Shown here one piece after another: positions 24,306 through 40,820 of a DNA stretch of 64,000 nucleotides. Source of the DNA: an uncultured Actinomycetes bacterium (GTDB lineage: Bacteria; Actinomycetota; Acidimicrobiia; Acidimicrobiales; RAAP-2); the NCBI GenBank assembly GCA_903924205.1, contig CAIYAP010000002.1, forward strand, positions 310,001 through 374,000, read 5' to 3'. The notes beneath the pieces are model-generated. The model was not told the origin of the DNA. It did no database searches and worked only from the letters and a program-made list of their open reading frames with translations. The translations under genes were made by a program, and so were the position numbers. The stretch's first letter is position 1. Each line of letters begins with the position of its first letter.

Positions 24306-24310
24306 CGGTG

Positions 24311-25477
24311 ATGGCCAGTGGTCTGTGGGACACTGGCGTCGTGTCATACCGCCAGGTCGTCAATCCCGCACGCCTGCATAGCCTTATTGACGCCATTTTG
24401 CTCATCGAGGCCGATATTGACCTCGATATTCTCCTCGCGCACATTGTGCGTACCGCCAGCGAATTAGTTCGGGCTCGATACGGCGCCCTCGGTGTCTTGG
24501 CCCCCGGCGGCGAGGAACTGGAACGCTTCATCACCTGGGGACTGGCCCCGGACGATGAAGCGGCGATGGGCAGCAAGCCCCGGGGCCACGGATTGCTCGG
24601 CGAAATCATTCGCGTCCCCGCCCCCCTGCGGGTGGAGGACATCTCGCAACACCCCCACTCCGCCGGCATGCCGCTCGGCCACCCGCCCATGACGAACTTC
24701 CTCGGGGTGCCGGTGCGTTCGGGCTCCGGCGAAGTCTTCGGCAATCTCTACCTCACTGATCGCTATGACGGCGAGCCCTTTTCTCTCGAGGATGAAGGTC
24801 TCATCGAGGCCTTCGGTCGAGCGTCGGGATTAGTCATTGACGAACACCGTCGTCGTGGTGACGTGCGCCAAACGACGCTCGCGGCCGAACGCGACCGCAT
24901 GGCGCGAGAGCTTCACGACACGGTGATTCAACGACTGTTTGCGGTGGGGCTGTCACTTCAGTCGGTCGCCCAACAGGTGGAGCCCGGCCTCGAAAGTCGA
25001 CTCAATCTCGCCATTGACAACCTCGATGCCACCATCAAGGAAATCCGCACCGCCATTTTCGAAATTTCGCAGCACCGACCGACCACGGACGAGTCGCTGC
25101 GAAACGCCGTGTTGAAAGTCGTGAATGAAGTGCCCGCTCGCCTCGGACTGCCCGTCGACGTCAGCTTTGATGGCCCCCTCGATTCTCTGGTGGGCGCGGA
25201 GTGTCGCGATGAACTCGTCGCCACCTTGCGCGAAGCGCTCACCAACGTCGTGCGCCACGCGAAGGCGCAGCACGCTCGCGTCTCCGTGGTTCTGCGCGAC
25301 GGGGAACTCACCTTGCGGGTGGTCGACGACGGCGTCGGTCCCCAACCCGGCGACGGCTTTGGCAATGGACTTCGGAACATGGCGCAGCGTGCGCAGCGCT
25401 TCGGTGGCAGCTGCGCCCTAGAACCCGCCACCCCTCGAGGATCGGTTTTGCGCTGGAGCGCAGAAAGGTGGAACTGA
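24311..25477 (+). CDS. GAF-domain sensor histidine kinase, DosS/DevS-like
   Basis: 388 residues from the ATG at 24311 (a GTG at 24308 is adjacent). One GAF domain spans about residues 24-170, with GALGVLAPGGEELERFITWG and FLGVPVRSGSGEVFGNLYLT. The HisKA_3 dimerisation box follows with RMARELHDTVIQRLFAVGLSL (phosphoacceptor His202). The HATPase domain has ETLTNVVRHA-like REALTNVVRHAKA and VVDDGVGP. This is the NarL-family kinase architecture. DosS/DevS has two GAF domains, one of them haem-binding; here there is only one, and haem binding cannot be judged. The stop is 1 bp before the regulator. Confidence 0.88.
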   Translation: MASGLWDTGVVSYRQVVNPARLHSLIDAILLIEADIDLDILLAHIVRTASELVRARYGALGVLAPGGEELERFITWGLAPDDEAAMGSKPRGHGLLGEIIRVPAPLRVEDISQHPHSAGMPLGHPPMTNFLGVPVRSGSGEVFGNLYLTDRYDGEPFSLEDEGLIEAFGRASGLVIDEHRRRGDVRQTTLAAERDRMARELHDTVIQRLFAVGLSLQSVAQQVEPGLESRLNLAIDNLDATIKEIRTAIFEISQHRPTTDESLRNAVLKVVNEVPARLGLPVDVSFDGPLDSLVGAECRDELVATLREALTNVVRHAKAQHARVSVVLRDGELTLRVVDDGVGPQPGDGFGNGLRNMAQRAQRFGGSCALEPATPRGSVLRWSAERWN

Positions 25478-25478
25478 C

Positions 25479-26120
25479 ATGTTGCGAGTAGCACTGATTG
25501 ACGATCACGAAATTGTGCGACGTGGACTGCGCGATCTGCTCGAGGCCACGGGCGACATCACCGTGGTGGCCGACGCCGGCACCGTCGACGATGCTCTCGC
25601 CGTCATCAACGTGGACGAGATTGACGTCGCGGTGTTGGACCTGCGCCTACCCGATGGCAGTGGCGTCGAGATTTGTCGTGAACTCATCTCGCGGCGAGCT
25701 GACCTCGCCTGCCTCATGCTCACCTCATTTGCCGATGATGAGGCCATGACTGCGGCGGTGGTCGCGGGGGCCAAGGGATACGTGCTGAAAGACATTCGCG
25801 GTAATGACCTCATCGAGTCGATTCACGCCGTGGCGCGCGGTGAGTCGCTCATTAATGACGAGACCATGCGTCACGTGCGTGACCGAGTGCACCGTCGCCT
25901 GGTGGAGCAAGCCCGCATTGAATCACTCAGTGGACAAGAACGACGCATCTTGGACTTGCTGGCCGAAGGAATGTCCAATAGGGAAATCGCCGAGACGATG
26001 TTCCTCGCCGAAAAGACGGTGAAGAATTACGTCAGCAATTTGCTCGCAAAACTGGGATTTGATCGCCGCACTGAGGCCGCCCTCTTCGCGCAGAAGATGA
26101 ACGACGAGGGACTTTTATAA
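25479..26120 (+). CDS. NarL/FixJ response regulator closely resembling DosR/DevR
   Basis: 213 residues. The receiver has Asp8/Asp9, phosphoacceptor Asp54 (VLDLRLPDG), Thr82 (LMLTSF) and Lys104 (GYVLKDI), the same numbering as M. tuberculosis DosR. The LuxR-type HTH at about 150-205 reads LSGQERRILDLLAEGMSNREIAE and then AEKTVKNYVSNLLAKLGFDRRT, matching the DosR recognition helix. It should be phosphorylated by the kinase encoded immediately upstream and act as a dimeric activator. The 3' end overlaps the convergent methyltransferase stop by 6 bp. Confidence 0.92.
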   Translation: MLRVALIDDHEIVRRGLRDLLEATGDITVVADAGTVDDALAVINVDEIDVAVLDLRLPDGSGVEICRELISRRADLACLMLTSFADDEAMTAAVVAGAKGYVLKDIRGNDLIESIHAVARGESLINDETMRHVRDRVHRRLVEQARIESLSGQERRILDLLAEGMSNREIAETMFLAEKTVKNYVSNLLAKLGFDRRTEAALFAQKMNDEGLL

Positions 26121-26888
26121 GTGCTGGTCGCTGCGGCGAGGCCGTACCGACCCATCGAGGCGTAGCACCGCGACGTAGGGGTCACCGGGGCTCGAATTAA
26201 TAATCGAATCCACTTTCCACCCTGTGCCGCGAAGAAGTGTCGCCATCTCGCCACGCGACACGAACAACCACTTCCACCACGGCCCCACGAGATCTTGGTA
26301 GTGGTAGCGATATCGAAGCAGGCCCGGCATCTCGCCGCGCTGCTGATTGAGGTGGAAGTACCCACGGGTGATGCAGGGAGCTCCGCCGAAGTAGGGGCTG
26401 GTGCTGACGGCCAACATTCTGACGTCAGGTGCCGCGATCGATGCCCAGGAGCGAAACCATCGCCGCGTGGCCGCCGGCGTTCCCAGCATCCCCAAATTGT
26501 TGCCGTACAGCACGATGGTGTCGAAGTCGGCCAGCTCGCTGCCCACCTCGGCAATGGACCGATGCCACACCTCGGCGACGCCGCATTCGCGAGCCGCCGT
26601 CACCACCTGCGCCGACGCGTCCATCCCCACTACTTCGATGCCGCGGCGCTGAAGCTCCAGTGAGACGCGCCCCGCCCCGCAGCCCACGTCGAGAACTCGA
26701 CCACGAGCGAGTCGCAGTGCGCGTCGTTCCGCGTCGAACCAATCGCGAGGGGGGCCGAGGTAGGCCGCACGGCCGTCACCTTCACAGAAGTAGCCGTCAT
26801 CACGCTCGTAGATCTCGTAGTCCTCGCCCCCGCGGGCCCAGTCCAAGATGGCCGTGCCGAAAATATCGGCGGCGCGCGATCTGTCCAT
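26115..26888 (-). CDS. Class I SAM-dependent methyltransferase
   Basis: 257 residues from the ATG at 26888; an in-frame start at 26915 adds nine weak residues. Motif I is GRVLDVGCGAGRVSLELQRRG and motif II begins VVGMDASAQVV; the post-motif region is DFDTIVLYGNNLGMLG. The upstream part YEIYERDDGYFCEGDG is typical of this small-molecule methyltransferase group. The substrate cannot be inferred. It faces away from oleA and toward dosR, so it is not part of either operon. Confidence 0.85.
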   Translation of the reverse strand: MDRSRAADIFGTAILDWARGGEDYEIYERDDGYFCEGDGRAAYLGPPRDWFDAERRALRLARGRVLDVGCGAGRVSLELQRRGIEVVGMDASAQVVTAARECGVAEVWHRSIAEVGSELADFDTIVLYGNNLGMLGTPAATRRWFRSWASIAAPDVRMLAVSTSPYFGGAPCITRGYFHLNQQRGEMPGLLRYRYHYQDLVGPWWKWLFVSRGEMATLLRGTGWKVDSIINSSPGDPYVAVLRLDGSVRPRRSDQHL

Positions 26889-26986
26889 GACTGAATTCTC
26901 GCAGAGTCGGGCCATGTCGGAAGGGGGCTGGCGGGGGCCGCGTCGGTCGCGTCCCTGACCAGGTGGAGGTGGCCTAACCTAAGTCA

Positions 26987-28000
26987 ATGACTAATCCCAC
27001 TTTGTTTTCTCGCTCCTTCATCTGGAGCGTGGCAAAAGTGGAGGCTCCGGAGATCGTTACCTCCGCGTGGATCGACGAACAACTCGCCGAGACCTACGAC
27101 CGAATTGGGGTCAGGCCCGGCCTCTTGGCGTCCATCGCCGGGATTGAGGAGCGCCGGTGGTGGCCGGCCAACACCTGTTTTGACGATGCCGCCGCTCAGG
27201 CCGGCGCACTGGCCCTGTCGCAGGCGGGAATAGACGCCAACGAGGTCGATCTGCTCATTTCGTCATCGGTGTGTAAGCACCACCTCGAACCCAGTGTGGC
27301 CTGCGCCGTTCACTATCGACTGGGTCTCAGCCCCACCTGCCTCAACTTTGACCTCGGGAACGCCTGCCTCGGCTTCATGAACGCCATGTCGGTGGCCGCC
27401 ATGGCCATCGAGACCGGTATGGCGAAAACCGTCCTCATCGTCGACGGCGAGGGAAGTCGTCAGACGCAGGAGTCAACCATCGCGCGACTTCGCCAGCCCA
27501 CCACCACCGTTGAGGACGTCTTTAACGAGTTCGCGTCCTTGACCTTGGGCTCGGGAGCCGCCGCCATGGTGATGGGTGGACCTCGTGACGGCGCCCATCG
27601 CTACCTCGGTGGCATCAGTCGCGCCGCGACCTCGCACCACGAACTCTGCGTCGGTGACCTCGACACGATGAAGACGGACACCGCGGGCTTGCTGACGGCG
27701 GGTCTCGATCTCGCCCGAGACGCTTTCGATGCCGCCCTGGCGATGAACTGGCAGTGGACCGATTGTGACTACTACGTCATGCACCAGGTCTCGAAGGTGC
27801 ACACGCAAAAACTGTGTGAACGCTTAGGGGTGGACCAGACCCGCGTGCCACTCACCTACCCCACCTTCGGCAATATGGGTCCCGCCGCTGTGCCTTTCAC
27901 CTTGGCGACCATTGCGGCCGACGTCCGCGACGGCGAGCGCGTGCTGCTCATGGGTATCGGTTCCGGTCTCAACTGCGCGGCCGCCGAAATCATCTGGTAG
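26987..28000 (+). CDS. oleA: OleA, thiolase-fold enzyme of olefin synthesis
   Basis: 337 residues, ketoacyl-synthase III-like. The catalytic triad is C127 (DLGNACLGFM), H266 (YYVMHQVS) and N296 (TFGNMGPA). Glu101 lies 26 residues before the Cys, the same spacing as the base Glu117 to Cys143 in Xanthomonas OleA, which separates OleA from FabH. OleA condenses two fatty acyl-CoAs head-to-head into a 2-alkyl-3-ketoacid. It is the first gene of oleA-oleBC-oleD, 8 bp before oleBC. Identification as OleA rests on these residues and the neighbours. Confidence 0.93.
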   Translation: MTNPTLFSRSFIWSVAKVEAPEIVTSAWIDEQLAETYDRIGVRPGLLASIAGIEERRWWPANTCFDDAAAQAGALALSQAGIDANEVDLLISSSVCKHHLEPSVACAVHYRLGLSPTCLNFDLGNACLGFMNAMSVAAMAIETGMAKTVLIVDGEGSRQTQESTIARLRQPTTTVEDVFNEFASLTLGSGAAAMVMGGPRDGAHRYLGGISRAATSHHELCVGDLDTMKTDTAGLLTAGLDLARDAFDAALAMNWQWTDCDYYVMHQVSKVHTQKLCERLGVDQTRVPLTYPTFGNMGPAAVPFTLATIAADVRDGERVLLMGIGSGLNCAAAEIIW

Positions 28001-28008
28001 GTCGTGTC

Positions 28009-30411
28009 GTGACGGTGCTGCGGCCCAGCGATGACCAACTCACTCGCTTCGGACTCAACCCTGCGTGGTCGCGTCAGGTCACCTTCGAGGGCGCCGACGG
28101 GGAACCAGTTACGTGGAACATCCTCGATACGGGTCACGGCGACCAGGGCACCATCGTCTGCGTGCACGGCAACCCGACGTGGTCGTATTTATGGCGCAAC
28201 CTCTCGCGCGACCTCAGTCCGCAGTGGCGGGTGATCGCTGTTGACCAAACCGGCATGGGCTTTTCGCAGCGCGGTCCGCGACGCACTCTCGCCCAGCGCA
28301 TCACCGAGCTGGTCACCTTCTGCGAAACCGAGGTCAACGGTCCACTGATCCTCGCCGCCCACGACTGGGGTGGCGCCATTGCCCTCGGGGCGACACCCTC
28401 TTTACCCGTAACGCGACTGATCTTGTCGAATACGGCCGTCGGCCTGCCCGACGGTGTGGCCATGCCACCGCTCATTGGCATTGCCCGCACCTTCGTGGGA
28501 CTGGTGTGTCGTTGGACGTTGGGATTCGTGCAGGGCACCGCCCTTATGACCGAGCGTGAACATCGACGGGCACTACGCGCGCCCTATCGCGGGTGGCGAC
28601 GTCGACGAGCGGTCGCGGACTTTGTCGCCGACATCCCTATTCATCCCCGCGACGTCTCATATGACGCGCTGCGGCAGGTAGCCGACTCGCTGAAGTCCTC
28701 GGACACTCCCGCGCTTTTGGTGTGGGGTGGCCGTGACGTGGTATTTCACGACGGCTTCTTGACCGATCTGGAGTCACGACTGTCGCACGTGGACGTCGAG
28801 AGGTTGGCCGACTGTGCCCACCTCGCCCCGCTCGATAAGCACTTCAGCAACATCGTGCAGCGTTGGCTCGACACCGACATCACCCCGCGACCCGCGATTT
28901 CGGACGCCCCGTTGGCCCACCCCATCTATTCGGTCATCGATGATCACGTCGATGACCCCTCCCCCGTTTTCATCGACTCGCATGGCGCATTGTCCTGGCA
29001 ACAACTCGCGTCGCGTCGGGCAGTCGCCGCGAGAGCCCTCCGGGCCCGCGGAATTGGTCCTGGCGACCGAGTGGCAATCTTGGTAAAGCCCAGTGGAAAC
29101 CTGCTGGTCACCGTGGCGGCTCTGTGGGCGGTGGGCGCGGTGCCGGTAGTGGCAGACAGCACTGGTGGCATTCGCCAACTTCGCAACCTCCTGCGCGCCG
29201 CGGCTCCGGTGGCGGTGATCGGAACATCGCGCACGCTGCTCATCGATCGCCTGTGTCGCCTCACGACCAGAACGACACGCCTCTGCATATATGGCCGTCA
29301 CTCGATTACCCGCGGCCCGGCCCTCGCTCGCGATCAGTTCGTGGCACTCACCGAGAATCAGCTGGCCGCCATTGTCCACACCTCGGGTTCCACCGGACCC
29401 GCCAAAGCCGTGACCTACACCCACGGCGCGCTGGTGGCGCAGCGCGATCTCTTTGACTCCTGGTTGCCCCGAGACAAGGGTGGCGCGTTCACCACCTCCT
29501 TCGCCCCCTTCATGCTCCTCGCTCCCGCCCTCGAGCGCCTCTGTCTCTTGCCCGCCATCCCCTTCGACAAACCCGAACGCATGACCATGTCGCACCTCGA
29601 AACCTTGTCGCGCCATGCTCCCCTCGAGGTGGCGTGGTTCTCCCCCGCCGCCGCCCGAAACCTGGTGGCCACTTCGTCCGGCCGTCGGGTGCCACTCGCT
29701 CACACCTTCCTTGCCGGCGCCGCCATTGACTCCGAACTCGCCGCGTCGCTCGCCGAGCTCACCGGGGGCAGCGTCGCCGCGCCGTATGGGATGACCGAAT
29801 GTCTTCCCGTTTCTGACGGCGTCAATGTGGTGGCGGATACCCGTGGAGGCACCGCCACCGGTCGACCCCTGCCGGGCTGTTCGGTCGTGATAGCCCCACT
29901 TGATGATCCGCCCGGTCGCTGCGTCGATGGTGAGTGGGGCGAGATATTGGTGTCGGCACCGTGGATGTTCTCGGAATATCGAAATCACTGGCTCGAGAAC
30001 GCCACCAGCACCATTACCCGTGAGGGGCAACGCTTTCACCGAACGGGTGACGTGGGTTACCTCAGCGAGGGTGAACTCTTCTATCTTGGAAGGCGCATCC
30101 ACGTGATCACCACCAGTTCCGGTCCCGTCGCCAGCGTGGCCGTCGAGGAAGCCATTCGTCGCGACACGTCGCTTATCACCGCCGCGGTGGGGGTGGGACC
30201 CACGGGCACTCAGGTAGTGGTGGTCGTGGTCGCTGGGCATGGGAAGCTTCAGCTCGCCACCGCCGACGTTGCCGCTGCCGCTCGGGCGGCGAGCCCCGTT
30301 CCCCTGGCGGCCGTTTTGACCGGAGAGTTTCCTGTCGATCACCGACACCATTCGAAGATTGATCGCGTGCTTCTCGCTCGTCAGAGCGAAGAGTTGCTTC
30401 TGGGTCGATGA
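28009..30411 (+). CDS. oleBC: OleBC fusion: beta-lactone decarboxylase plus beta-lactone synthetase
   Basis: 800 residues, GTG start. Residues 1-300 are an alpha/beta-hydrolase of the haloalkane-dehalogenase type (OleB): oxyanion-region HGNPTWSYLW, nucleophile Asp119 in AAHDWGGAIA, acid Asp243, His271. Residues about 310-800 are an AMP-dependent synthetase-like OleC: HTSGSTGPAKAVTYTHG at about 457-473, PYGMTECLP, and RTGDVGYLSEGELFYLGR. OleC closes the beta-hydroxy acid into a beta-lactone; OleB removes CO2 to give the cis-olefin. Split genes occur in Xanthomonas and Stenotrophomonas, while fusion is the actinobacterial form. It overlaps oleD by 4 bp (ATGA). Confidence 0.95.
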   Translation: MTVLRPSDDQLTRFGLNPAWSRQVTFEGADGEPVTWNILDTGHGDQGTIVCVHGNPTWSYLWRNLSRDLSPQWRVIAVDQTGMGFSQRGPRRTLAQRITELVTFCETEVNGPLILAAHDWGGAIALGATPSLPVTRLILSNTAVGLPDGVAMPPLIGIARTFVGLVCRWTLGFVQGTALMTEREHRRALRAPYRGWRRRRAVADFVADIPIHPRDVSYDALRQVADSLKSSDTPALLVWGGRDVVFHDGFLTDLESRLSHVDVERLADCAHLAPLDKHFSNIVQRWLDTDITPRPAISDAPLAHPIYSVIDDHVDDPSPVFIDSHGALSWQQLASRRAVAARALRARGIGPGDRVAILVKPSGNLLVTVAALWAVGAVPVVADSTGGIRQLRNLLRAAAPVAVIGTSRTLLIDRLCRLTTRTTRLCIYGRHSITRGPALARDQFVALTENQLAAIVHTSGSTGPAKAVTYTHGALVAQRDLFDSWLPRDKGGAFTTSFAPFMLLAPALERLCLLPAIPFDKPERMTMSHLETLSRHAPLEVAWFSPAAARNLVATSSGRRVPLAHTFLAGAAIDSELAASLAELTGGSVAAPYGMTECLPVSDGVNVVADTRGGTATGRPLPGCSVVIAPLDDPPGRCVDGEWGEILVSAPWMFSEYRNHWLENATSTITREGQRFHRTGDVGYLSEGELFYLGRRIHVITTSSGPVASVAVEEAIRRDTSLITAAVGVGPTGTQVVVVVVAGHGKLQLATADVAAAARAASPVPLAAVLTGEFPVDHRHHSKIDRVLLARQSEELLLGR

Positions 30412-31361
30412 AAGTTCTCGTCACCGGCGCCACGAGCCTGCTGGGTCGGCACGTCACCGGATTACTGCTGGCGCGAGGCGATGACGTCACCACGTTTCAA
30501 CGCGGAGAAAGTGGACTCGCCACCCGCGAAGTGCGAGCCGACATCCGCGATCTCGACGCGCTGCTTGCGGCGGCAAAGGGGCGCGACGCCGTCATTCACG
30601 TCGCCGCCCTAGTCGCTCCTCGACCCAGGTGGGAAGACGCGTTCGCCATCAACGTGGGGGGCACTCGTCACGCTCGTCTCGCGGCGGAAACATGTGGTCG
30701 ATTTGTCCATATCTCGTCGCCATCAGTGGCCTTCGATGGCCGAGGCCATATCGGTCAAGGCACGAAACCCGCGAGCTACACCGGCAGTGATCGATACACC
30801 CGCAGCAAGGCCCTCGCTGAACAACTCGTCCTTGACCAGCCCCGAGTTCCCACCGTCGTGATTCGACCCCACTTGGTATGGGGGCCAAGCGACACGCAAT
30901 TGGTGGGTCGAATCATCGAACGGGCGAAAAAGGGCCAGCTGCGACTTCCTAATCACGGGGTCGCTCTCATCGACACTACCTACATCACCGACGCGGCAGC
31001 GGCCATCGTCGCGGGTCTCGACGCCGCCAATGAATCATCACCCGCGATCAATCGAGCATGGACGGTGACGGGCAATGATCCTCGGCCACTTGCTGAACTT
31101 GTGAACGGGATTCTTCAGGCAGCCGGAATTTCGTCGCCCGTGAAACACATCGACGGCAAGCTCGCCCTCAGCGTTGGGGCATTGATTCAAAAGGTGTGGT
31201 GGGGCGATGAGCCGCCCCTAACCAGATTCGCCGCGCAGCAATTGTCCCTTGCTCACACCTTTGATCAACGCGACACACAAGTTGCACTTCAATGGATGCC
31301 CACCGTCTCGACGCAAGAAGGATTGCGGCGCTTGCACGCCGTTCTACCCCTTGCCAAATAG
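30408..31361 (+). CDS. oleD: OleD, NADPH-dependent 2-alkyl-3-ketoacid reductase
   Basis: 317 residues, extended SDR (3-beta-HSD-like). The nucleotide motif is TGATSLLGRHV, DIRD follows beta-4, and the catalytic pair is Tyr130 and Lys134 in YTRSKALAEQ, with RPHLVWGPSDTQLVGRIIERAKKG downstream. It reduces the OleA product to the 2-alkyl-3-hydroxy acid before lactone formation. Its ATG overlaps the oleBC stop, so the three genes form one operon encoding the complete OleABCD pathway to long-chain alkenes. Confidence 0.93.
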   Translation: MKVLVTGATSLLGRHVTGLLLARGDDVTTFQRGESGLATREVRADIRDLDALLAAAKGRDAVIHVAALVAPRPRWEDAFAINVGGTRHARLAAETCGRFVHISSPSVAFDGRGHIGQGTKPASYTGSDRYTRSKALAEQLVLDQPRVPTVVIRPHLVWGPSDTQLVGRIIERAKKGQLRLPNHGVALIDTTYITDAAAAIVAGLDAANESSPAINRAWTVTGNDPRPLAELVNGILQAAGISSPVKHIDGKLALSVGALIQKVWWGDEPPLTRFAAQQLSLAHTFDQRDTQVALQWMPTVSTQEGLRRLHAVLPLAK

Positions 31362-31736
31362 CGCGCGAGACTCATTGCATAGCTACTACTTCAGGTGGCC
31401 CTAGTCCTTGACCCACACTTCCAAGATCGACAAGGGGACGTGTTTCATACGTCAAGCGCCACCGGTTATCTCGCCTATTTTGGTCTCTTCAGAACAATCG
31501 TGTGCATAATCCGATCCGCGAAACACTGTCCCGTCACGAGTCCAACGATGTAACCGATACCCAGCGGAAGTCCGTCAAGAATTAGCAAGAAACTCCGACC
31601 AATCCCTGCACCCCCGCCATCGTGAAGTCCATCTTGATGAGTTCGGCGACGAACCTGGACCTACCGGTGACCCTGTGTCCTGACCCCCTTCAATCGGTCC
31701 ATCTCTTATGACTAGAGAGCCCCAGATAAGACTGAC
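31362..31736. other. Gap between oleD and the IS3 end, no intact gene
   Basis: Three hundred and seventy-five bases with no convincing gene. The minus strand has short open segments such as FADRIMHTIVLKRPK (about 31480-31530) in broken frames, and a patch at 31660-31710 resembles insertion-sequence flank. It may be debris of older insertions. No target duplication or terminator is obvious. Confidence 0.4.
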
Positions 31737-31761
31737 TGAATCGCGACGGGTTTTCCGGAGA

Positions 31762-31989
31762 CTAAATCGTTTCCAAAACGGCCAGACTTTCTGACTCGTT
31801 AACTGCATAGTAGGCGTCTTCAAATTCGGTTGGCGTGACGTGGCCGAGTGACTCGTGGATGCGTCGTCGGTTGAACCAGTCGATGTAGGTGAGCGTCGCC
31901 CATTCGACGTGCTCGATGTTGCGCCAGGGTCCTTTGCGGTGAATCAACTCGGCCTTGAACTGTCCGTTGAAGCTCTCGGCCAGCGCGTT
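31762..31989 (-). pseudogene. IS3 orfB, 3' part (C-terminal 75 residues)
   Basis: NALAESFNGQFKAELI with the catalytic Glu continues exactly from the GDSYD that stops at 33318, and the protein runs to the stop at 31762 with DWFNRRRIHESLGHVTP. Both parts are in one frame if 31990-33317 is removed. The apparent start of the open frame lies in IS110 sequence and is not native. Confidence 0.88.
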
Positions 31990-32014
31990 GATGCCCCTAT
32001 ATGTCAAGAATTGA

Positions 32015-33094
32015 TCAAGTGGCCGCTGAAAGAGCTGTTCTGGCATGGAAATCTGCCATCACTCGACCGTAGACTTCTCGAGCGATGAAGCGCTTGAGGC
32101 AGCGGATGATGTCTCGCTTGGAGAGTCCTTCCGCGGTCCGCTTGGCGACGTAGTCCTTGGTCGGTTGATGGTGTTGCATCCGAACAATGGCGGTGCGATA
32201 GATCGCGGCATTGGCTTGGCGATGTCCGTTCCACGCAAGACGATGACGGGTGGTCATGCCAGAAGATGCCGGTATGGGAGCGACGCCGCACAGTTTGGCG
32301 AATGCCGCCTCGGAGCGAACGCGGTCCGGGTTGTCGCCAAAGACGATGAGAATCTCCGCGGCCGTGTCCGGCCCAATGCCGAAGCCATCACACAAGGTCG
32401 GTGACAGCGAGGTCGTGAGTTTGGCGATAACGGCGTCGTGATCTTTCACCTCAGCGTTCAAGAACTCCCACCGCCTTGCCAGGGCTCGCAGCGTGTGCTT
32501 GGCCGCAGATATTGGATCGTCGACGGTTCCCGGTCGAAAGCCCGAACACTTCTGGATGAGTGCCTTGTCGCCGAGGGAATCGAGTTGTTCCTTCAGTTCC
32601 TATGGCGTGTTCACAATCACCGTCTTCAAAGAAATAATCGCACTGGTGCGGTTTTTGCAAGCAATATCGCGGGCCACCTTGATCTTTCGGATCATCTCGA
32701 CCGTGCCGTCAGCGCTTTTGGGAACGGCCGTGGAGGTGCCGGCGATGACGCTGCGTGCGGCGAGTTCAGCATCGAGCGTGTCGCTCTTGCCGTTAGCTCG
32801 ACGAGCTCTGCGGTCGCCACGATTCACTTCAACGACCTTTCGCCCCTGGCGTCGGAGGTAACTCGTGAGGTTGGCTCCGTAGCTGCCGGTGCCTTCAATG
32901 CCGTAGGCGAGGACCCGGCCGAAGCTCTGGGCCCAGCGGTCGAGTTCCTGGTAGCCGAGCGAGTCGACAGGGACTCTGAGGTCACCGAGTCGCTGTCCGT
33001 CATCATCGAGAACAACCGCGACATGGACGTGTTTGTGGGTGTCGACACCGACAATGATCTTGCTCAGTGGCCCTGGTGGTGAAATGCTCGACAT
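32015..33094 (-). pseudogene. IS110-family transposase with an internal in-frame TAG stop
   Basis: A single frame of 360 codons from the ATG at 33094 is broken only by TAG at 32602-32600. The N-terminal RuvC-like DEDD domain has IIVGVDTHKHVHVAVV, YGIEGTGSYGANL and SDTLDAELAARS. After the stop the frame continues with ELKEQLDSL and the C-terminal transposase_20 domain, LCDGFGIGPDTAAEILIVFG and AKLCGVAPIPASSG, where the catalytic Ser would lie. Most likely it is a nonsense mutation that inactivates the recombinase; suppression is a less likely alternative. Confidence 0.85.
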
Positions 33095-33317
33095 TGCTGT
33101 TCTCCTTGAACGGTTGGTGTCAGCGGGTCGAGTGGGCGGACAGGACTGTGAAGAGTCGCAAATGAACGAAAGGCCCCTATTGGGTCACTCCCGCTCGACT
33201 CGCTGGCGTCTGCATTGATCGCTGCATGACCCGGACCGACAGATCAACGCCAAGGCACTGTGGCCAGTCGTAACACGGGTCAGATCCGAATCACGCAGCA
33301 GCCCTATTTAACTCACA
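33095..33317 (-). ncRNA. Candidate IS110 bridge-RNA leader
   Basis: A non-coding 223-bp segment lies between the element end and the transposase ATG, the position that carries the bridge RNA in IS110-group elements. The octamer GCCCCTAT at 33173-33180 also occurs at the far end of the element (31993-32000), as expected if it lies in a donor-pairing loop. Folding and expression are not shown, so this is a positional inference. Confidence 0.35.
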
Positions 33318-34000
33318 GTCATAGCTGTCGCCTCGGCTGCCAACCGAGGCGACGATGTCGGCGTCGCCGAGTCGCTCGGTGTAGCGAATGCTGAGGTATT
33401 GGACTCCGCGATCGCTGTGGTGAATGACCTGGCTGAGGTCGCGGTGCTGACGTGAGTGGATCGCCATTTCGAGGGCGTCGATGGCGAGGTCGCTGCGCAG
33501 CGACGTCGAGATCTGCCAACCAACCACCATCCGGCTGAACACGTCGACAATGAAGGCCACGTAGACCCATCCGGAGTGTGTCTTGACGTAGGTGAGGTCG
33601 GCAACCCAGAGTCGATTCGGCGCCGGAGCAGAGAACTCTCGTTCGACGAGGTCGCTCGGACGATGCAGTGTGTCGTCGCTCGCCGTCGTCACCTTGTAGT
33701 GCCGTCCTCGCCGGACACCTGAGAGCCCCATCTCGCGCATGAGCCGCCTCACGGTGCAGTTGGCCACCTCCAACCCCTCGCGTCGCAGCTGCTTCCAGAC
33801 CTTCAGTTGGCCGTAGCAACCGTCGAAGCTCTCGTTGTAGACGCGCTGAATCTCAACTTTCAGCTCCTCGTCACGACACCGGCGAGCAGACAGCGGTCGG
33901 GACTTCGCGTCGTAGTAGGTGGCGGGAGCGAACTGCAGAGCCCTGCAGATCGGCTCGACTCCCCAACGATCTCTCCGAGAATCGATGTAGCGAACTACTT
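33318..34000 (-). pseudogene. IS3 orfB, 5' part (DDE transposase), cut by IS110 insertion
   Basis: Reading leftward from the orfA overlap: DSRRDRWGVEPICRALQFAP, the HTH region, then VANCTVRRLMREMGL, then the integrase core with WVADLTYVKTHSGW (first Asp) and VIHHSDRGVQYLS (second Asp). The frame is intact to GDSYD at 33318 and then runs into IS110 sequence. It is in the -1 frame relative to orfA and has no ATG near its start, consistent with expression by frameshifting as in IS3. Confidence 0.85.
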
Positions 34001-34315
34001 CTTCGTTCGACCGTCGAGCTCGGTCGCGAAGAAAATCGACGCATCCTTCAAGATCTCATTGGCGCGGCGCAGGTCACGCACCTCGCGTTCGAGTTCCTTC
34101 AGATGTTGACGTTCATCGGTCGTGAGTCCGGGTCGCAGGCCACCGTCGATCTGAGCCCGGCGAACCCAGGTCCTCAGTGTCTCGGGCGCCATCCCAAACT
34201 TCGAAGCCACCGAAGTGAAGGCGGCCCACTCGGACGAATACTCGTCGCGGTGGTCCAACACCATCCTGATGGCTCGTTCACGCACCTCTGGGGAGTAGCG
34301 GGACTGTCGTGGCAT
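33995..34315 (-). CDS. IS3 orfA (helix-turn-helix transposase subunit)
   Basis: 106 residues. [20 protein letters not shown] and [18 protein letters not shown] form the HTH_Tnp_1 DNA-binding domain; [18 protein letters not shown] is the leucine-zipper-like helix; [12 protein letters not shown] ends it. It binds the inverted repeats, and its 3' end overlaps orfB in the -1 frame. The gene itself is intact, but the element is disrupted. Confidence 0.92.
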
Positions 34316-34371
34316 GAGTTAATCCTCTCAGAGGATTCACTCTCCAACATTCCCGTCCGGCTTCAATAACG

Positions 34372-34412
34372 AAAATACCCCCAGCCACCTAAAAGGTAGC
34401 TGGGGGTATTTT
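34372..34412 (-). terminator. Rho-independent-like terminator of the FN3 gene
   Basis: Fourteen-nt arms AAAATACCCCCAGC (34372-34385) and the exact reverse complement (34399-34412) form a stem with T/A runs at both bases. It lies 8 bp past the stop of the fibronectin-repeat gene and could also stop transcription entering from the IS. Confidence 0.88.
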
Positions 34413-34419
34413 GCTAGCC

Positions 34420-37400
34420 CTATCTGACTAAAAGACTCACAGTCGAAGTCGTTGAAGACACTCCATTGCTCGCGTTTGCGACAATCGAGAAGACGTGCGC
34501 GCCCTTAGTTAAACCACTCAGAGTGGTGGTCAATCCCGTAACCGACTTAGTGACAATCTTGCCATTCTGGGTGTAGGTGATCTTGTAAGAAGTAATGCCA
34601 GCACCAACATTCACTGGTGCCTTCCACCTCAAGATAACGGTTCCCGTGGAAGGCTGTGTAGCCGTCACACCCGTCACAGCACCAGGTGCGGCGTAGGCCG
34701 TGCGGGCTGAGGCAGTAGCGGCCGATGAGTTCTGGCTGTCTGACGCATTAGCCACAACCGAGAAGGTGTAGTTAGTGCCTGCAGACAAACCCGTCACTGT
34801 CAACGAGGTGGCGTTAGCGCCCGGCTGACTAGCAATGGTGCAGCTTGGGGTACAGGTAACGGTGTAGCCGTTGAGCGAGGCCGATCCGTTAGCTGCAGCA
34901 GCGGTCCAGTTCAAGAGAACCGAGGACGTTGACTGGGCAGTCGCGGTTAGTCCCGTCACAGCACCAGGTGCGGCGTAGGGAGTAGTCGTTGACGCACTGG
35001 CGCCGTTTGAATACTGTCCATCGCTAGCCTGCGTCAAAATCGTGAAGGTGTAGTTAAGACCACCTGTTAGTCCGGTGATGACCACTGAACTCAGTTGCGC
35101 TGCAACCGGGTTAGAAATCGAGCAAGCAGGCGAACAGGTTACGAAGTAACCAGCGACGCCAGCACCGACATTCTGAGATTTGGTCCACGACACGGTGACC
35201 GAATTCGCGGCCGTAGCAGTAGCCGTCACACCCGTCACAGCACCAGGTGCGGCGTAGGCCGTGCGGGCTGGAGCAGTAGCGGCCGATGAGTTCTGGCTGT
35301 CTGACGCATTAGCCACAACCGAGAAGGTGTAGTTAGTGCCTGCAGACAAACCCGTCACTGTCAACGAGGTGGCGTTAGCGCCCGGCTGACTAGCAATGGT
35401 GCAGCTTGGGGTGCAGGTAACGGTGTAGCCGTTGAGCGAGGCCGATCCGTTAGCTGCAGCAGCGGTCCAGTTCAAGAGAACCGAGGACGTTGACTGGGCA
35501 GTCGCGGTTAGTCCCGTCACGGCACCAGGTGCGGCGTAGGCCGTGCTCAGGTTGACCGTCGTCGTGGTGTTACCGCTCAGCGCTTGCGCCATGATCGAAA
35601 CGACGTACGCCAAGTTCGGGGTCAGCCCAGTCAGATTTACGGAGGTAGCGGTACCGCTGAGTGTTTGCGTCGAACCACACGTGGGTGAGCAAGTGACGAC
35701 GTAGCCAACAATGGCATTGCCCGAACCGATTGGTGCGCTCCACGAGACAGTCGCGGTTGTGGTTGTAACGCTGTTCGAAGGGCTAACCAAGAGGCCCGGC
35801 GCTGACGCAGTCAACACCGCGCTGGAGGTTGCGCTTCCCGAAGACTGTGCATCGGAAGCATTAGTAACAATGCTGAACGTGTAGGAGGTGTTGGGGGTGA
35901 GACCCGTGATCAATGCCCCGGTGGCGTTAGCGCCCGGCTGACTAGCAATAGTGCAGCTTGGGGTGCAGGTAATGGTGTAACCCGACAAGCCCGAGCCCAC
36001 CTGAGCCGGTGCCAACCAGTTCAGCTGAACCTGTGTCATTCCCGACGTCGTAGCGGTCACACCCGTCACGGCACCAGGTGCGGCGTAGGCCGTGCGGGCT
36101 GAGGCAGTAGCGGCCGATGAGTTCTGGCTGTCTGACGCATTAGCCACAACCGAGAAGCTGTACAGCGTTCCTGAAGTCAATCCAGTGATCACCAACGAAG
36201 TGTCGTTGGCGCCCGGCTGACTAGCAATGGTGCAGCTAGGGGTGCAGGTGACGGTGTAGCCACTGAGTCCAGAGCCAACTTGAGCCGGAATTGTCCACGA
36301 GAGATTTACCGATGACGTCGACTGGGCAACGGCCGCGATCGCACGTGGTGCACTTGGCGCCAAGTAGAGAGTACGGACCGAGGCAGTGGCTGCAGCCGAT
36401 GACTGCGTTCCGGTCGCATTGGCGACAATCGAGAAGGTGTAGCTCTGGCCCGCAGTCAAGCCCGTCACCGTCAATGAGGTGGCGTTAGCGCCCGGCTGAC
36501 TAGCAATGGTGCAGCTAGGGGTGCAGGTGACGGTGTAACCGCTGAGTCCCGAACCAACCTGAGTAGGCGGTGTCCAGTTCAAGAGAACTGAAGAGGCGCT
36601 CGAAGCCGAAGCCGTCATGTTCGTAGGTGCCCCAGTTACGGTGCGCGCAGACGCTGTAGCTGATACGGAGTTCTGGGTATCTGTACCGTTGGCCACGAGT
36701 GTGAATGAGTAGCTCACGCCAGGAGTCAATCCAGTGATTAACAACTGGGTGGCGTTGGCGCCCGGCTGACTAGCAATAGTGCAACTTGGGGTGCAGGTAA
36801 CGGTGTAGCCGCTGAGTCCAGCGCCAACCTGAGTCGGTGCTGTCCAGTCCAAGAGAACTGAAGTTGTCGACTGGGTGGTTGCGGTGAGTCCCGTGGCTGC
36901 GCTTGGAGCAACGTGCATCGTGGTGAACGTCTCAGGACTTGATGCCACGGAAGTATTGCCATTTACGTCGTTGGCCGAAACAACACAGCTGTACAGAGTG
37001 TTAGGTGCCAATCCGGTGATCAAGGCAGTCGCTGATGACGAGATGCCATAGACTGCTGAGCCCACCGACGGGGTGCACACATAGAGATAACTCAAGATTG
37101 CCGCGCCGCCCTGAAGATTCGACGGGGCAGTCCACGTCAGAGTTGCTGACGTTGAGGTCACCTGGGCGCTAGAAAGCACGGTGGCACTTCCCACTGCGTA
37201 GGTCTGAACTGATGATGAACTCTGGGTATCAGTTGAGTTGGCAACAATCGAGAATGTGTAGCCCTGGCCTGCAGTCAATCCAGTGATCACCAACGAAGTA
37301 TCGTTGGCACCCGGCTGACTAGCAATAGTGCAGCTAGGGGTGCAGGTAACGGTGTAACCGCTGAGTCCCGAGCCAACCTGAGCGGGTGCCGCCCACGTCA

Positions 37401-39294
37401 ACTGGACTGAAGTGGACGTTTGGGCGGTGGCCGAGAAACTACGTACCGAACCCGGTGCGAGATAGTTGGTCGACAGCGATGTTGTTGCACTTGTCGACTG
37501 GAGGGTGTCAGTGCCGACGGCAACGATGGCGAAGGAGTAACTCACGCCAGAGCTCAGACCAGTGACGATTAGGGAAGTTGCATTAGCGCCCGGCTGACTA
37601 GCAATGGTGCAGCTAGGGGTGCAGGAGACTACGTAACCCTGTCGAGCAACTCCGGTTCCCGCCGCAGGCGCAGTCCAATCAAGTCGCACCGAAGTCGTTG
37701 ACGGAGCTGACGCAGTGAAGTTAGTCACCGCAGAGAACTTCGTATTCCCAGCAAAGGTTGCCGCGGGTGAGTTCTTCAAATCAGCGGAGTTCGCAATGAC
37801 CGTGAAGGTGTAACGCGTTGCGGGGCTAAGACCAGTGACTACTAGCGAAGTGGCGTTAGGTCCAGGTTGATTAGCGATGGTGCACGTTGGAGAACATGTA
37901 ACGGTGTATCCATTCAACGCTCCGGCGAGGGCCAGGTTGGCGGGTGCTGACCAGCTCAGCGAGATCGAAGTCGAAGTCTGACTCGAAACGCTGAGGCCAA
38001 CAACTGCCGTAGGAGCGGGGTTCGTTGAAACTGGAGTGGAGACTGATGCCGATACGTATGTTGGGGAAGATGAACCATTGACTGCGAACGCCAAAACGTA
38101 AATCGTGTACGCGGTTGTTGGAACAATTGGGTACTGCTGCGAAGACTGGAACGTTACCGAAGGACTCTCCGACGGATTAATCGTTGCCGAGCCACAGCTG
38201 GTTGACGCACCCGTAAAGCAGTACGCCTTGTAGAAGGTGAGATAACTGGCCGATCCTGCCGGTGCGCTCCACGTTGCCCGGAGTGACGAAGCCGTAGGTG
38301 CGGTAACCGTGAGGCTCTGGACCACACCGATCGTCGACGCCGTGCTGGCGGTCGCAGTGGCGGGAGTTGACAGCTGGAGGTCGGAGGCTTTTGCAATCAC
38401 GGAGAAGGTGTAACTCTGACTGTAATTCAGACCTGAGACGAGGAGTGAAGTTGCATTGGCATTGGGCTGGCTAGCAATCGTGCAGCTAGGCGAGCAAGAG
38501 ACGGTATAGCCATTCAGACCACTACCGAGATATGCGGGAGCAGTCCAAGTCAAAAGAGCGGTTGAGAGTGTTTGTTGGGAAACTTGCAGTGATCGGGGGG
38601 CTGTCGGAGCGAAATTTCCGACGGCCGTTGCAGTAGCGCCACTTTGGCCATCACTGGTGTTGGCAACAATGGTGAACGTGTAGGAGTTAGTCGTTGTGAG
38701 GTTAGCGATCGTTAACGATGTGGCATTTGCGTTCGGCTGATTAGCGATGGTGCACGAAGGCGAACACGTGACCGTGTAGCCACTTAGGCCGCTACCGATG
38801 TTGGTTGGGGCAGTCCACGAAAGATCCATGGACGTGCCTGTTTGGGAGTTCGGAACAGCCGCAAAATTGGAAACCGCAGACGCTGGATTCTGCAAAGTTC
38901 TCGTGGAGACCGCTGCACCGGCAACATTCGGCGGCGTGTCGGTGTCAGAGGCGATCACGGTAACCGTCAGGCTCGTGTCAGGGGTCAGACCGGAAACATC
39001 GGCAGAGGTCGCCGAAGACGACAAATTCTGTCCCGCTACAACGGTGCCTGTACCGTTAGTGACTTGGACTTCAATCACGGAGAGCGCCACTTCGTTAACT
39101 GGAATTGACCAGGCAACGTGCATAGAAGTATTGGTCACTTGTGATACTGCCAGATTGCTGACTGCACTTAACGACAGGGGGGTGGCCCCCACCGCAACCG
39201 CAGACCCGATAGCTAGCGAACTAGCCGCCACGATCATCGCAATCGTACGATTGGCGATACGCGACAGATGCTTGCACGTCATATTGATTTCCAT
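34420..39294 (-). CDS. Secreted protein of 17 tandem fibronectin type III domains
   Basis: 1624 residues from the ATG at 39294, which has GGGAG 8 nt upstream; the ATG at 39309 lacks this. A signal peptide (about 1-40, IAMIVAASSLAIGSAVAVGA) is followed by 17 FN3-like repeats of about 90-95 residues to the end. Most share GYTVTCTPSCTIASQPGANA, with two cysteines four residues apart. No LPXTG motif, anchor helix or catalytic domain is seen, so it is probably released or held by partners. Likely roles are surface adhesion or matrix. Base composition is more AT-rich than the flanking genes, and domains 14 and 16 are nearly identical in DNA. Confidence 0.85.
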   Translation of the reverse strand: MEINMTCKHLSRIANRTIAMIVAASSLAIGSAVAVGATPLSLSAVSNLAVSQVTNTSMHVAWSIPVNEVALSVIEVQVTNGTGTVVAGQNLSSSATSADVSGLTPDTSLTVTVIASDTDTPPNVAGAAVSTRTLQNPASAVSNFAAVPNSQTGTSMDLSWTAPTNIGSGLSGYTVTCSPSCTIANQPNANATSLTIANLTTTNSYTFTIVANTSDGQSGATATAVGNFAPTAPRSLQVSQQTLSTALLTWTAPAYLGSGLNGYTVSCSPSCTIASQPNANATSLLVSGLNYSQSYTFSVIAKASDLQLSTPATATASTASTIGVVQSLTVTAPTASSLRATWSAPAGSASYLTFYKAYCFTGASTSCGSATINPSESPSVTFQSSQQYPIVPTTAYTIYVLAFAVNGSSSPTYVSASVSTPVSTNPAPTAVVGLSVSSQTSTSISLSWSAPANLALAGALNGYTVTCSPTCTIANQPGPNATSLVVTGLSPATRYTFTVIANSADLKNSPAATFAGNTKFSAVTNFTASAPSTTSVRLDWTAPAAGTGVARQGYVVSCTPSCTIASQPGANATSLIVTGLSSGVSYSFAIVAVGTDTLQSTSATTSLSTNYLAPGSVRSFSATAQTSTSVQLTWAAPAQVGSGLSGYTVTCTPSCTIASQPGANDTSLVITGLTAGQGYTFSIVANSTDTQSSSSVQTYAVGSATVLSSAQVTSTSATLTWTAPSNLQGGAAILSYLYVCTPSVGSAVYGISSSATALITGLAPNTLYSCVVSANDVNGNTSVASSPETFTTMHVAPSAATGLTATTQSTTSVLLDWTAPTQVGAGLSGYTVTCTPSCTIASQPGANATQLLITGLTPGVSYSFTLVANGTDTQNSVSATASARTVTGAPTNMTASASSASSVLLNWTPPTQVGSGLSGYTVTCTPSCTIASQPGANATSLTVTGLTAGQSYTFSIVANATGTQSSAAATASVRTLYLAPSAPRAIAAVAQSTSSVNLSWTIPAQVGSGLSGYTVTCTPSCTIASQPGANDTSLVITGLTSGTLYSFSVVANASDSQNSSAATASARTAYAAPGAVTGVTATTSGMTQVQLNWLAPAQVGSGLSGYTITCTPSCTIASQPGANATGALITGLTPNTSYTFSIVTNASDAQSSGSATSSAVLTASAPGLLVSPSNSVTTTTATVSWSAPIGSGNAIVGYVVTCSPTCGSTQTLSGTATSVNLTGLTPNLAYVVSIMAQALSGNTTTTVNLSTAYAAPGAVTGLTATAQSTSSVLLNWTAAAANGSASLNGYTVTCTPSCTIASQPGANATSLTVTGLSAGTNYTFSVVANASDSQNSSAATAPARTAYAAPGAVTGVTATATAANSVTVSWTKSQNVGAGVAGYFVTCSPACSISNPVAAQLSSVVITGLTGGLNYTFTILTQASDGQYSNGASASTTTPYAAPGAVTGLTATAQSTSSVLLNWTAAAANGSASLNGYTVTCTPSCTIASQPGANATSLTVTGLSAGTNYTFSVVANASDSQNSSAATASARTAYAAPGAVTGVTATQPSTGTVILRWKAPVNVGAGITSYKITYTQNGKIVTKSVTGLTTTLSGLTKGAHVFSIVANASNGVSSTTSTVSLLVR
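34659..34979 (-). repeat. FN3 repeat unit, copy 1 (near-identical to 35220-35540)
   Basis: About 320 bp, nearly identical in DNA to the segment 561 bp further on; I see only a handful of differences (for example GCTGAGGCA against GCTGGAGCA). It covers domain 16 and its borders. Such identity implies recent duplication or conversion. Confidence 0.9.
35220..35540 (-). repeat. FN3 repeat unit, copy 2
   Basis: Partner of 34659-34979, with an offset of exactly 561 bp (187 codons, two FN3 domains). It covers domain 14. The intervening domain 15 is divergent, so the duplicated unit was a two-domain block or domain 16 was converted by domain 14. Confidence 0.9.
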
Positions 39295-39311
39295 TACTAA
39301 CACTCCCATTA

Positions 39312-39325
39312 GTTATCTAGATAAC
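39312..39325. promoter_or_regulatory. 14-bp palindrome upstream of the FN3 gene
   Basis: GTTATCTAGATAAC is a perfect palindrome 18 bp upstream of the start codon of the FN3 gene, in its promoter-leader region. A dimeric regulator site is the natural reading; no candidate protein is linked to it. Confidence 0.5.
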
Positions 39326-39855
39326 ATGAGAAGTATACGCACAACCAGTGACGCTATGTCCACTTTTTGCATTCCCTCCCTGAATTTCCGGACTTTCCCC
39401 TGAATGTCACACCTGTTTCATGAAGAGTTATCCCTAGGAATCCAGTCCGAAATGTCTGCGGTGCGGGTCCCGTATTTGATGCATCGGTCCTGTACAGAGA
39501 GACCGATTGAGGCTTATTGGAGCATTGCAATACCAGCTAGGCCTACTTGCCGGAAATACTGGAGGTTCGATTGTCGTCGATTCGTATTAGTTGGATTCAC
39601 AACATCAACAGCGATCTTGCGATACCTGAGGATTACGGCGTTTCGACCACGGACATATCAGTTAGCGAGTTCGCATATTGCCCGAGAGCCTTGGCCAGAA
39701 TTAGATCGTGGCTCTCACCAGTCATCAATGCAACCGTCTCAAGGACTAGTGCAGTTGGACCTTCAACTCTATGAATCGCGGCGCCAATCTCTATTTCCAG
39801 CTCAGGCATGTGCCCCCCAGGGGGATGCTGAGCCTACAAATCCCCGTCGAAGGTC
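39326..39855. other. AT-richer gap between FN3 gene and RHH gene, no gene recognised
   Basis: About 530 bases. An open plus-strand frame runs through here into the RHH gene, but its first 152 codons have no recognisable protein features, and the RHH protein has its own start and operator. It is probably non-coding or decayed, and should hold the promoters for both flanking genes. Confidence 0.45.
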
Positions 39856-39870
39856 TAACATGTTATGTAT
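39856..39870 (+). promoter_or_regulatory. RHH operator motif, copy 1 (over its own start codon)
   Basis: TAACATGTTATGTAT contains the palindrome TAACATGTTA and overlaps the ATG at 39860. Fourteen of its 15 bases recur at 40146-40160, just after the gene. Confidence 0.65.
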
Positions 39871-40114
39871 GGGAACAAAACAGACGGCGGTACGCCTTCC
39901 CGAGGTATTGGTTGCACAGATAACTGCAGCTTCACGAGTCAAGGGTGTCAGTGTGAATTCTTTGGTGATTGAGGCGTTGGAGGTATATATCCAAAATCTG
40001 CGCAGAGATAAGGCATTCCAGGGGTCTGTTAAACAAGTACTCAACGACGACTTGGCGGTTCTCGCTTCTTTCGTGGAAGAGAACGACGCCAGCCGGGAGC
40101 CCAACAAGGCGTAA
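39860..40114 (+). CDS. Ribbon-helix-helix DNA-binding protein
   Basis: 84 residues from the ATG at 39860 (an ATG at 39869 gives 81). QTAVRLPEVLVAQI is the strand and start of helix 1, and VKGVSVNSLVIEALEVYIQ is helix 2 of an RHH (CopG/Arc) fold. The C-terminal 35 residues look like a helical tail. No toxin gene follows, so it is either an orphan antitoxin or a repressor of a mobile element. Copies of a 15-bp motif flank it, which suggests autoregulation. Lying next to the tRNA fragment, it fits a mobile-element control gene. Confidence 0.75.
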   Translation: MLCMGTKQTAVRLPEVLVAQITAASRVKGVSVNSLVIEALEVYIQNLRRDKAFQGSVKQVLNDDLAVLASFVEENDASREPNKA

Positions 40115-40373
40115 GTATCGTTCATACCTCTACTTTATAACAAACTAACTTGTTATGTATAGACTGATCAACCTTAAGTCCGATAGAGCTGTGGGGACAC
40201 CTATTTACGCCATTTACGGGGTTTGGGTTGCTCCCCATTCTGCTGAGAAGGCCGGGCCAATGGGGATTTTGTTTGCCAGACAAGGCTGGCGTCCGAGAGG
40301 TGCCCACTGGTATCTGCGAACTTGATCCGACTCTTAATCCAGATTGACGTGTGAATCATTCGATAAGGCACGG
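40115..40373. other. Gap between RHH gene and tRNA fragment
   Basis: After the operator motif I see no gene. Apparent open frames here are read through the tRNA fragment and are artefacts. Confidence 0.4.
40138..40160 (+). promoter_or_regulatory. RHH operator motif, copy 2 with added inverted repeat
   Basis: TAACTTGTTATGTAT at 40146-40160 matches the upstream motif in 14 of 15 bases. It overlaps an inverted pair TAACAA (40138-40143) and TTGTTA (40150-40155). A second binding site downstream of the gene would regulate something that is no longer recognisable to the right. Confidence 0.55.
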
Positions 40374-40414
40374 TTCCCAAGCTGAGAACGCGGGTTCGAT
40401 TCCCGTCGCCCGCT
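40374..40414 (+). tRNA. 3' fragment of tRNA-Gly, probable attachment-site remnant
   Basis: From the anticodon loop TTCCCAA (anticodon CCC), the sequence continues with GCTGAG, the T arm GCGGGTTCGATTCCCGT and the 3' acceptor strand CGCCCGC plus discriminator T. The 5' half that would pair with it (acceptor GCGGGCG, D arm, 5' anticodon stem) is absent: bases to the left do not pair. This is a duplicated tRNA 3' end, the usual footprint of integrase-mediated insertion. It is not a functional tRNA, and the intact gene is outside the window. Confidence 0.75.
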
Positions 40415-40820
40415 CTCAATCCAACTACCACTTTCCCTTGTAACTAAGGGGCATTGAGATTTTCCGTGATTACTCTCAAGATTCCGAGAAACTTCAATTT
40501 GAGGCGCCCGAAGTTGCCCAAAACGACTTGAGGCGCCCGCGAGGCGCCCGAAATCGAGTACCGCTTGCATGGTTTGTGCCGCATTGCAAAGCTGTCCTGT
40601 CCGGACCCCATTCATTGGTCCAGGTGCGCAATGAGCGAAAGTTCATGGTCATTCATTTCTCAGCGTCGGGAGGCGTAAAGCCAGAAAAACGCTGCCGCGG
40701 GGAACGTCGCGAGCGTAACAGTGATAGCAATGAGGGAAGGGGTTTCCCTCGCCTTGCGGGCACACTCGTTCTTCATCGACCGCCGTGGGGCCGAGGTGCT
40801 CGGACGCACCCGCCGTCGAC
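40415..40820. other. Gap between tRNA fragment and map, with decamer repeats
   Basis: The decamer GAGGCGCCCG occurs three times (40501-40510, 40530-40539, 40541-40550). A short hairpin (GAGGGAA...TTCCCTC, about 40733-40752) may end map transcription. No coding sequence is convincing. Short repeats beside an attachment core are what integrase or excisionase arm sites look like, but this is only an inference. Confidence 0.4.

Follow-up and report, generated by a model that had tools for sequence, protein, structure and literature searches.

The window, by which we mean the whole 64,000-nucleotide stretch of DNA analysed here, very probably carries, as an accessory module predicted from sequence, a complete operon for head-to-head olefin synthesis of the kind found in actinobacteria (oleA, an oleBC fusion and oleD); the operon lies in an insert of 14.7 kb bordered by a widespread DosRS-like gene pair on one side and map on the other. 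The three genes are as follows:

26987 to 28000, + strand: oleA, 337 aa, thiolase-fold condensing enzyme
28009 to 30411, + strand: oleBC fusion, 800 aa, OleB hydrolase-fold half followed by OleC AMP-binding half
30408 to 31361, + strand: oleD, 317 aa, SDR-type reductase

An earlier sequence-only reading had described the genes as contiguous and overlapped; they are contiguous, but only oleBC and oleD overlap (by 4 bp), oleA and oleBC being separated by a gap of 8 bp. OleA was assigned in Pfam to ACP synthase III-type proteins, scored well over the NCBIfam PRK09258 cut-off (414 bits vs 285) and aligned over residues 6–337 with PDB chain 3row (E 3e-82). Both PRK09258 and 3row are labelled 3-oxoacyl-ACP synthase III, and we take both to stand for OleA, 3row presumably being the OleA of X. 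campestris. OleBC is a single chain of 800 aa in which Pfam identified Abhydrolase_1 at residues 48–277 (69 bits) and AMP-binding at 319–657 (146 bits), and OleD is an Epimerase/3Beta_HSD-type (NAD-dependent epimerase-type) protein in the same database.

Distribution and exchange of ole among relatives

OleBC was found in 26 of 172 genomes of the family and nine of 99 genomes of the genus (E < 1e-20), two of these nine carriers (G016 and G051) being interrupted by contig ends, as well as in all five sampled genomes of a second genus, g6. Wider samples, with the window's own match counted, gave 50 of 397 genomes for the order (E 1e-60) and 20 of 396 for the phylum (E 1e-40). Among the 25 other family loci that were fetched, OleBC was present in all, OleA in 24 and OleD in 23; all three genes lay on the piece in 22, and the remaining three loci were cut by contig ends. 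Since every one of the 22 full loci had oleA, oleBC and oleD in this order on one strand, the arrangement is not one of chance. The genes neighbouring ole varied among subgroups, although a few neighbourhoods were shared (loci L059, L069 and L028 were left out of this comparison). Matches to OleBC occurred in 87 plasmid records, one of which extended over 80% of the protein, at 29% identity, in two pieces and unannotated there. Named genomes, scanned with OleBC alone, yielded a single distant adenylate-forming match.

Four matches to WhiB place the genome that holds the window in Actinomycetota (Corynebacterium was the one control of 14 that had any), and a SecY tree set its class, which may be Acidimicrobiia (Ilumatobacteraceae-like), apart from named Actinomycetes. 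Named Actinomycetes and same-phylum genomes shared a branch of 99/96, support for the window's own class was no more than 91/82, and a version of that class widened by Nonomuraea and Tsukamurella was rejected (p 4e-4), in a tree that has long branches and two named rows representing plasmid-borne copies of secY.

Within the family, the operon tree is at odds with a further SecY tree. On SecY the genus forms a single clade (99), but its nine operons, concatenated, do not: forcing them together lowers the log-likelihood by 209 units (AU p 1.5e-59). A single clade of operons was also rejected for g6 (p 2e-7) and g8 (p 3e-4), and was not rejected for g4 (p 0.06). The operon of the window groups with those of G051, G016 and G144 from its own genus and with that of G082 from another. 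The operon tree comprised 25 rows, with G071 left out and G016 only 27% filled; the SecY tree also had 25 rows, with G077 and G071 absent for want of a match, G080 and G085 represented by their best piece and G170 added. These were quick trees with SecY as single species marker, and the SecY branch leading to the window's lineage is long (0.73).

Because the two trees conflict, horizontal transfer of ole within the family is probable, and transfer would be the simplest reading of the conflict. Vertical descent, with old duplicates and many losses producing both the tree conflict and the patchy pattern, is the strongest of the alternatives and would fit the clustering of genera in the ole tree beyond that of shuffled labels, the presence of ole throughout the sampled g6 genomes and the failure to reject g4 as one clade. 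We nevertheless regard it as unlikely: no family genome had two full OleBC copies among the matches listed, the sites occupied by ole differ between genomes of one genus, and three genera were rejected as clades. We lean, with moderate confidence, towards transfer in a more specific form, in which ole would be a mobile, self-contained three-gene cassette with a leaderless promoter, exchanged between species and located at various sites in a small-genome family outside the named Actinomycetes. If true, olefin making would be an accessory, species-level trait in this family, and not a genus-wide lipid trait as reported for Micrococcales.

Catalytic residues and the predicted pathway

The residues to which the sequence-only reading had pointed (C127, H266, N296 and Glu101 in OleA, Asp119 in OleB, the AMP-site in OleC, and Tyr130 and Lys134 in OleD) were all recovered at the same numbers by script. 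In OleA, Glu101, Cys127, His266 and Asn296 were invariant in 25 aligned rows and also aligned with 3row; we assume that the Cys, His and Asn have the roles ascribed to them in OleA and that the Glu reaches in from the partner subunit. Asn55, Asp119, Trp120 and His271 were located by script in OleB, with D119 and H271 conserved in the 24 rows that cover both. The OleC half carries TSGSTGPAK from residue 458 (the P-loop) and YGMTE from 593. Across OleB and OleC, motif residues were conserved in covering rows with the exceptions of Ser461, Tyr593 and Arg678; Ser461, in the P-loop, stands where 23 other family rows have Ala. Ser103, Tyr130 and Lys134 (Tyr-x3-Lys) of OleD were invariant across 23 rows.

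Homology and conserved catalytic residues thus back the claim that every step to the olefin is present, and the chemistry, as established for the family, would run as follows. Two fatty acyl-CoAs would be joined by OleA into a 2-alkyl-3-ketoacid, and OleD would reduce this to the 3-hydroxyacid; ring closure to a beta-lactone, at the expense of ATP, would fall to the OleC half of OleBC, and the OleB half would decarboxylate the beta-lactone to a long-chain internal alkene, predicted to be retained in the membrane. Transcription would most likely start at a leaderless promoter that belongs to oleA and yield one message for all three genes.

In a different outcome, a divergent OleBC would no longer complete lactone formation or decarboxylation and the operon would stop at a beta-lactone or ketone. 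OleC fell under the cut-off of the NCBIfam equivalog OlefBLtnSynXan (175 vs 900 bits), and the top NCBIfam model for OleD, oxyalk_red_OleD, gave 225 bits with a cut-off of 580. Two other actinobacterial fusions (G558 and G912) were also under these cut-offs, at 304 and 283 bits for OleC and 283 and 314 bits for OleD; because they fail too, the cut-offs do not define the fused type. The window nonetheless had the lowest OleC and OleD scores of the three fusions. The low OleC score, an OleC half about 40 residues short relative to the PRK09274 model, and Ser461, which departs from the family, would fit an incomplete route. Set against this are the conservation of Asp119 and His271 in OleB and of the P-loop and YGMTE in OleC, together with open reading frames in 25 loci, and we consider a truncated pathway very unlikely. 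The full olefin pathway is the reading that we retain: by homology the operon is complete and its predicted chemistry ordinary, the carriers being new and the pathway known.

The insert, its DosRS-like neighbours and the oleA promoter

The surroundings of ole comprise the following features:

24308 to 25477, + strand: DosT/DevS-like histidine kinase with one GAF domain (context only)
25479 to 26120, + strand: DevR-like response regulator (context only)
26121 to 40820, no strand: insert of 14.7 kb between regulator and map, holding ole; junction closed in most relatives examined
26115 to 26915, - strand: class I SAM methyltransferase-type gene (context only)
26975 to 26980, + strand: TAACCT, probable -10 box of a leaderless oleA promoter (TANNNT conserved upstream)
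31736 to 34355, - strand: IS3-type element split by an IS110-type transposase (32015–33094, two ORFs)
34420 to 39309, - strand: FN3-repeat protein, 1629 aa, inside the insert
40374 to 40417, + strand: 3' end of tRNA-Gly(CCC), 44 bp, near the right edge of the insert
40821 to 41561, - strand: map (Peptidase_M24), right border of the insert

The insert thus contains the methyltransferase gene, ole, broken insertion sequences and a giant FN3 gene. We compared its borders across the loci of the 30 best kinase matches, which include the window's own and hence represent 29 relatives. Regulator and map abut in 25 of the 29, the distance from stop to stop being -4 to +54 bp; the stops often overlap by 4 bp. 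The four exceptions were G169 (L102), with 5.9 kb at the junction; G158 (L109), with 1.1 kb; G006 (L101), in which map was not seen in the 1.1 kb left before the contig end; and G159, whose piece ends before the regulator. That other relatives bear inserts of different size at this place suggests an insertion hot spot at the regulator–map junction. In four other ole-bearing genomes of the genus (G051, G144, G017 and G016) the junction is closed and ole lies elsewhere. The closest relative, G170 (SecY 99%), gave no OleBC match above background, and its contig ends inside the kinase gene, leaving the empty site unreadable there. The flank on the kinase side holds ribosomal-protein genes and infA (eIF-1a family), with adk and secY beyond map. 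In the relatives examined, the DosRS-like pair sits between map and infA, within the block of ribosomal-protein genes.

The IS3-type element includes an ALIL frameshift element (RF01497), and its two parts, 31736–31990 and 33328–34355, adjoin at two places in G170, whereas in the window they are parted by the IS110-type transposase. The tRNA-Gly(CCC) 3' end has a conserved tail, some 137 nt long, that also follows an intact tRNA-Gly in G168 (L161 1471–1542), and further copies of this 3' end or tail occur on contig 3 of the window's own genome (G000:C3:3043-3221, 3415-3456 and 82249-82292). The 3' end with its tail looks like the attachment site of an integrating element. Besides the IS3 rve domain, no integrase was recognised in the scanned ORFs, and Pfam matched none of eight additional ORFs in the insert and at its right edge. 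The FN3 protein has 16 FN3 stretches, and since two 300-nt copies in its gene are 99% identical, the repeats look recently duplicated or homogenised.

The methyltransferase gene does lie between regulator and oleA, divergent from the latter, as the sequence-only reading had it, and overlaps the end of the regulator gene by 6 bp (26115–26915). It was considered as a partner of the pathway and set aside, no homologue being found in 25 other ole loci. It was likewise rejected as a defence gene: its single PADLOC match (mad2, 39 bits, part of the protein) was taken as generic.

The regulator upstream had been called dormancy-type and placed about 870 bp from ole; the measured distance from its end to oleA is 866 bp, and the resemblance of the pair to DosRS is genuine. 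The best PDB matches of the kinase GAF domain were DosT (E 2e-39) and DevS (E 4e-32), and that of the regulator was DevR, at 218 bits vs 124 for the next PDB match, with the stretch flaektvknyvs identical in the two. Kinase His125 aligned with the DosS heme ligand His149, and Tyr148 (counted by eye) with the distal Tyr171 (DosS numbering from PMC4082495). The kinase has one GAF domain in Pfam where the tandem GAF-A/GAF-B arrangement has two. As GAF domain, heme-ligand positions and regulator all match DosT/DevS/DevR, the label DosRS-like is fair, minus the second GAF domain.

The pair is distributed independently of ole. A kinase match (E 1e-60 or better) was present in 83 of the 99 genus genomes, namely in eight of the nine with ole (the exception being G168) and in 75 of the 90 without. 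At the 25 other fetched ole loci, no homologue of kinase, regulator or methyltransferase was detected at E 1e-6; the flanks at these loci are uneven, but in 20 they reach 2 kb or more beyond oleA on its upstream side, which is enough to reveal a regulator spaced as in the window.

The sequence before oleA itself points to a promoter of another kind. TANNNT ~12 bp ahead of the start has been described as a mark of leaderless genes in high-GC actinobacteria (PMC3160421). All 25 upstreams, the window's own and those of 24 loci, have such a box before the oleA start codon, and in 24 its position is exactly -12 to -7, compared with 10% at random places of the same upstreams. The script that chose starts favoured those with TANNNT, although every row nonetheless retained the start given by the protein alignment, and the 25 rows are related rather than independent. 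A C at -14 was conserved in 24 of the 25, with weaker columns farther upstream, and among window ORFs of at least 600 bp the box was present in four of 41, oleA included. Most likely, then, oleA has its own leaderless promoter, predicted from a -10 box that is the strongest conserved upstream element. An iron-regulator-like half site, CCTAACCTAA, seen by eye before oleA, was discarded once the relatives identified it as the -10 box.

A search for DosR boxes upstream of oleA had been put forward as a check on the link. With a consensus that we take to be that of DosR, none was found at 25135–28207 with up to 3 mismatches; across the window, 17 DosR-like palindromes occurred at up to 3 mismatches vs 34 expected by chance, and genome-wide, at up to 2 mismatches, there were 10 sites vs 7 for a reversed control, none of them near ole. 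One DosR-like site, GGGACTTTCGGCCC (G000:C2:270660-270673), is followed at about 160 bp by a WhiB match (270836–271024, + strand); because the genome-wide count is near that of the control, it is a mere lead to the real targets of the pair.

It is thus highly improbable that the pair controls ole, with low oxygen or NO sensed by the kinase and the regulator binding upstream of oleA to yield olefins that alter the membrane: its proximity and its likeness to DosT/DevS and DevR are outweighed by its independence of ole in the genus, the failure to find it at 25 other ole loci (20 of them with 2 kb or more ahead of oleA), the lack of a DosR box near oleA and the convergent methyltransferase gene that separates the two. 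The low-oxygen olefin response proposed from the sequence finds no support, given the wide occurrence of the pair in the genus irrespective of ole, the ole-bearing genome G168 with no kinase match, the missing box and the leaderless -10 box of oleA. As a conserved feature a regulatory link is refuted, and in the genome of the window it is unlikely; most likely, the DosRS-like genes stand beside ole owing only to the place of insertion. Adjacency across the border of an insertion is no evidence of control. Our literature search found no work joining DosR and long-chain olefins, which is not to assert its absence from print.

Comparison with known systems

Most likely, the window shows a known pathway in a new carrier and not a new low-oxygen response. 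It adds small-genome Actinomycetota from outside the named Actinomycetes to the lineages with fused oleBC operons. We found no work on olefins in Acidimicrobiia, again without asserting that there is none in print; for oleA, Ilumatobacter and hydrocarbon, the search led to PMC10351704, in passages of which olefin does not occur. The hydrocarbon of Shewanella is made in higher amount in the cold and its role is called obscure in a passage of PMC6463001. Comparing related genomes with and without the operon would offer an approach to what olefins do in bacterial membranes, which is still obscure.

Mycobacterial DosS/DosT-DosR resembles the upstream pair in the best PDB matches of both proteins and in the conserved positions of the heme-ligand His and distal Tyr; it differs in that its kinases have two GAF domains and the window's has one, and the pair of the window is unlinked to ole in relatives. 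The oleABCD system of Xanthomonas campestris shares with the window an OleA that aligns over residues 6–337 and, by homology, the same four activities. In contrast, oleB and oleC are fused in the window, and its OleC and OleD are far under the Xanthomonas-type NCBIfam cut-offs. Clusters of oleACD that lack oleB and make beta-lactones have homologues of OleA, OleC and OleD in common with the window, which differs in possessing the OleB domain, including its Asp.

The closest counterparts are the fused-oleBC clusters, described as typical of Micrococcales and also known from Granulosicoccus, with Mobilicoccus among the examples; like the window, they have oleA, fused oleBC and oleD in one cluster (PMC7064751). 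PMC7158056 places Gram-positive ole clusters only in Micrococcales, almost always genus-wide, although its results also mention two actinobacterial groups. The genome of the window, in contrast, falls outside the named Actinomycetes on SecY, and the patchiness of ole in its genus runs against the genus-wide pattern reported there in 2020.
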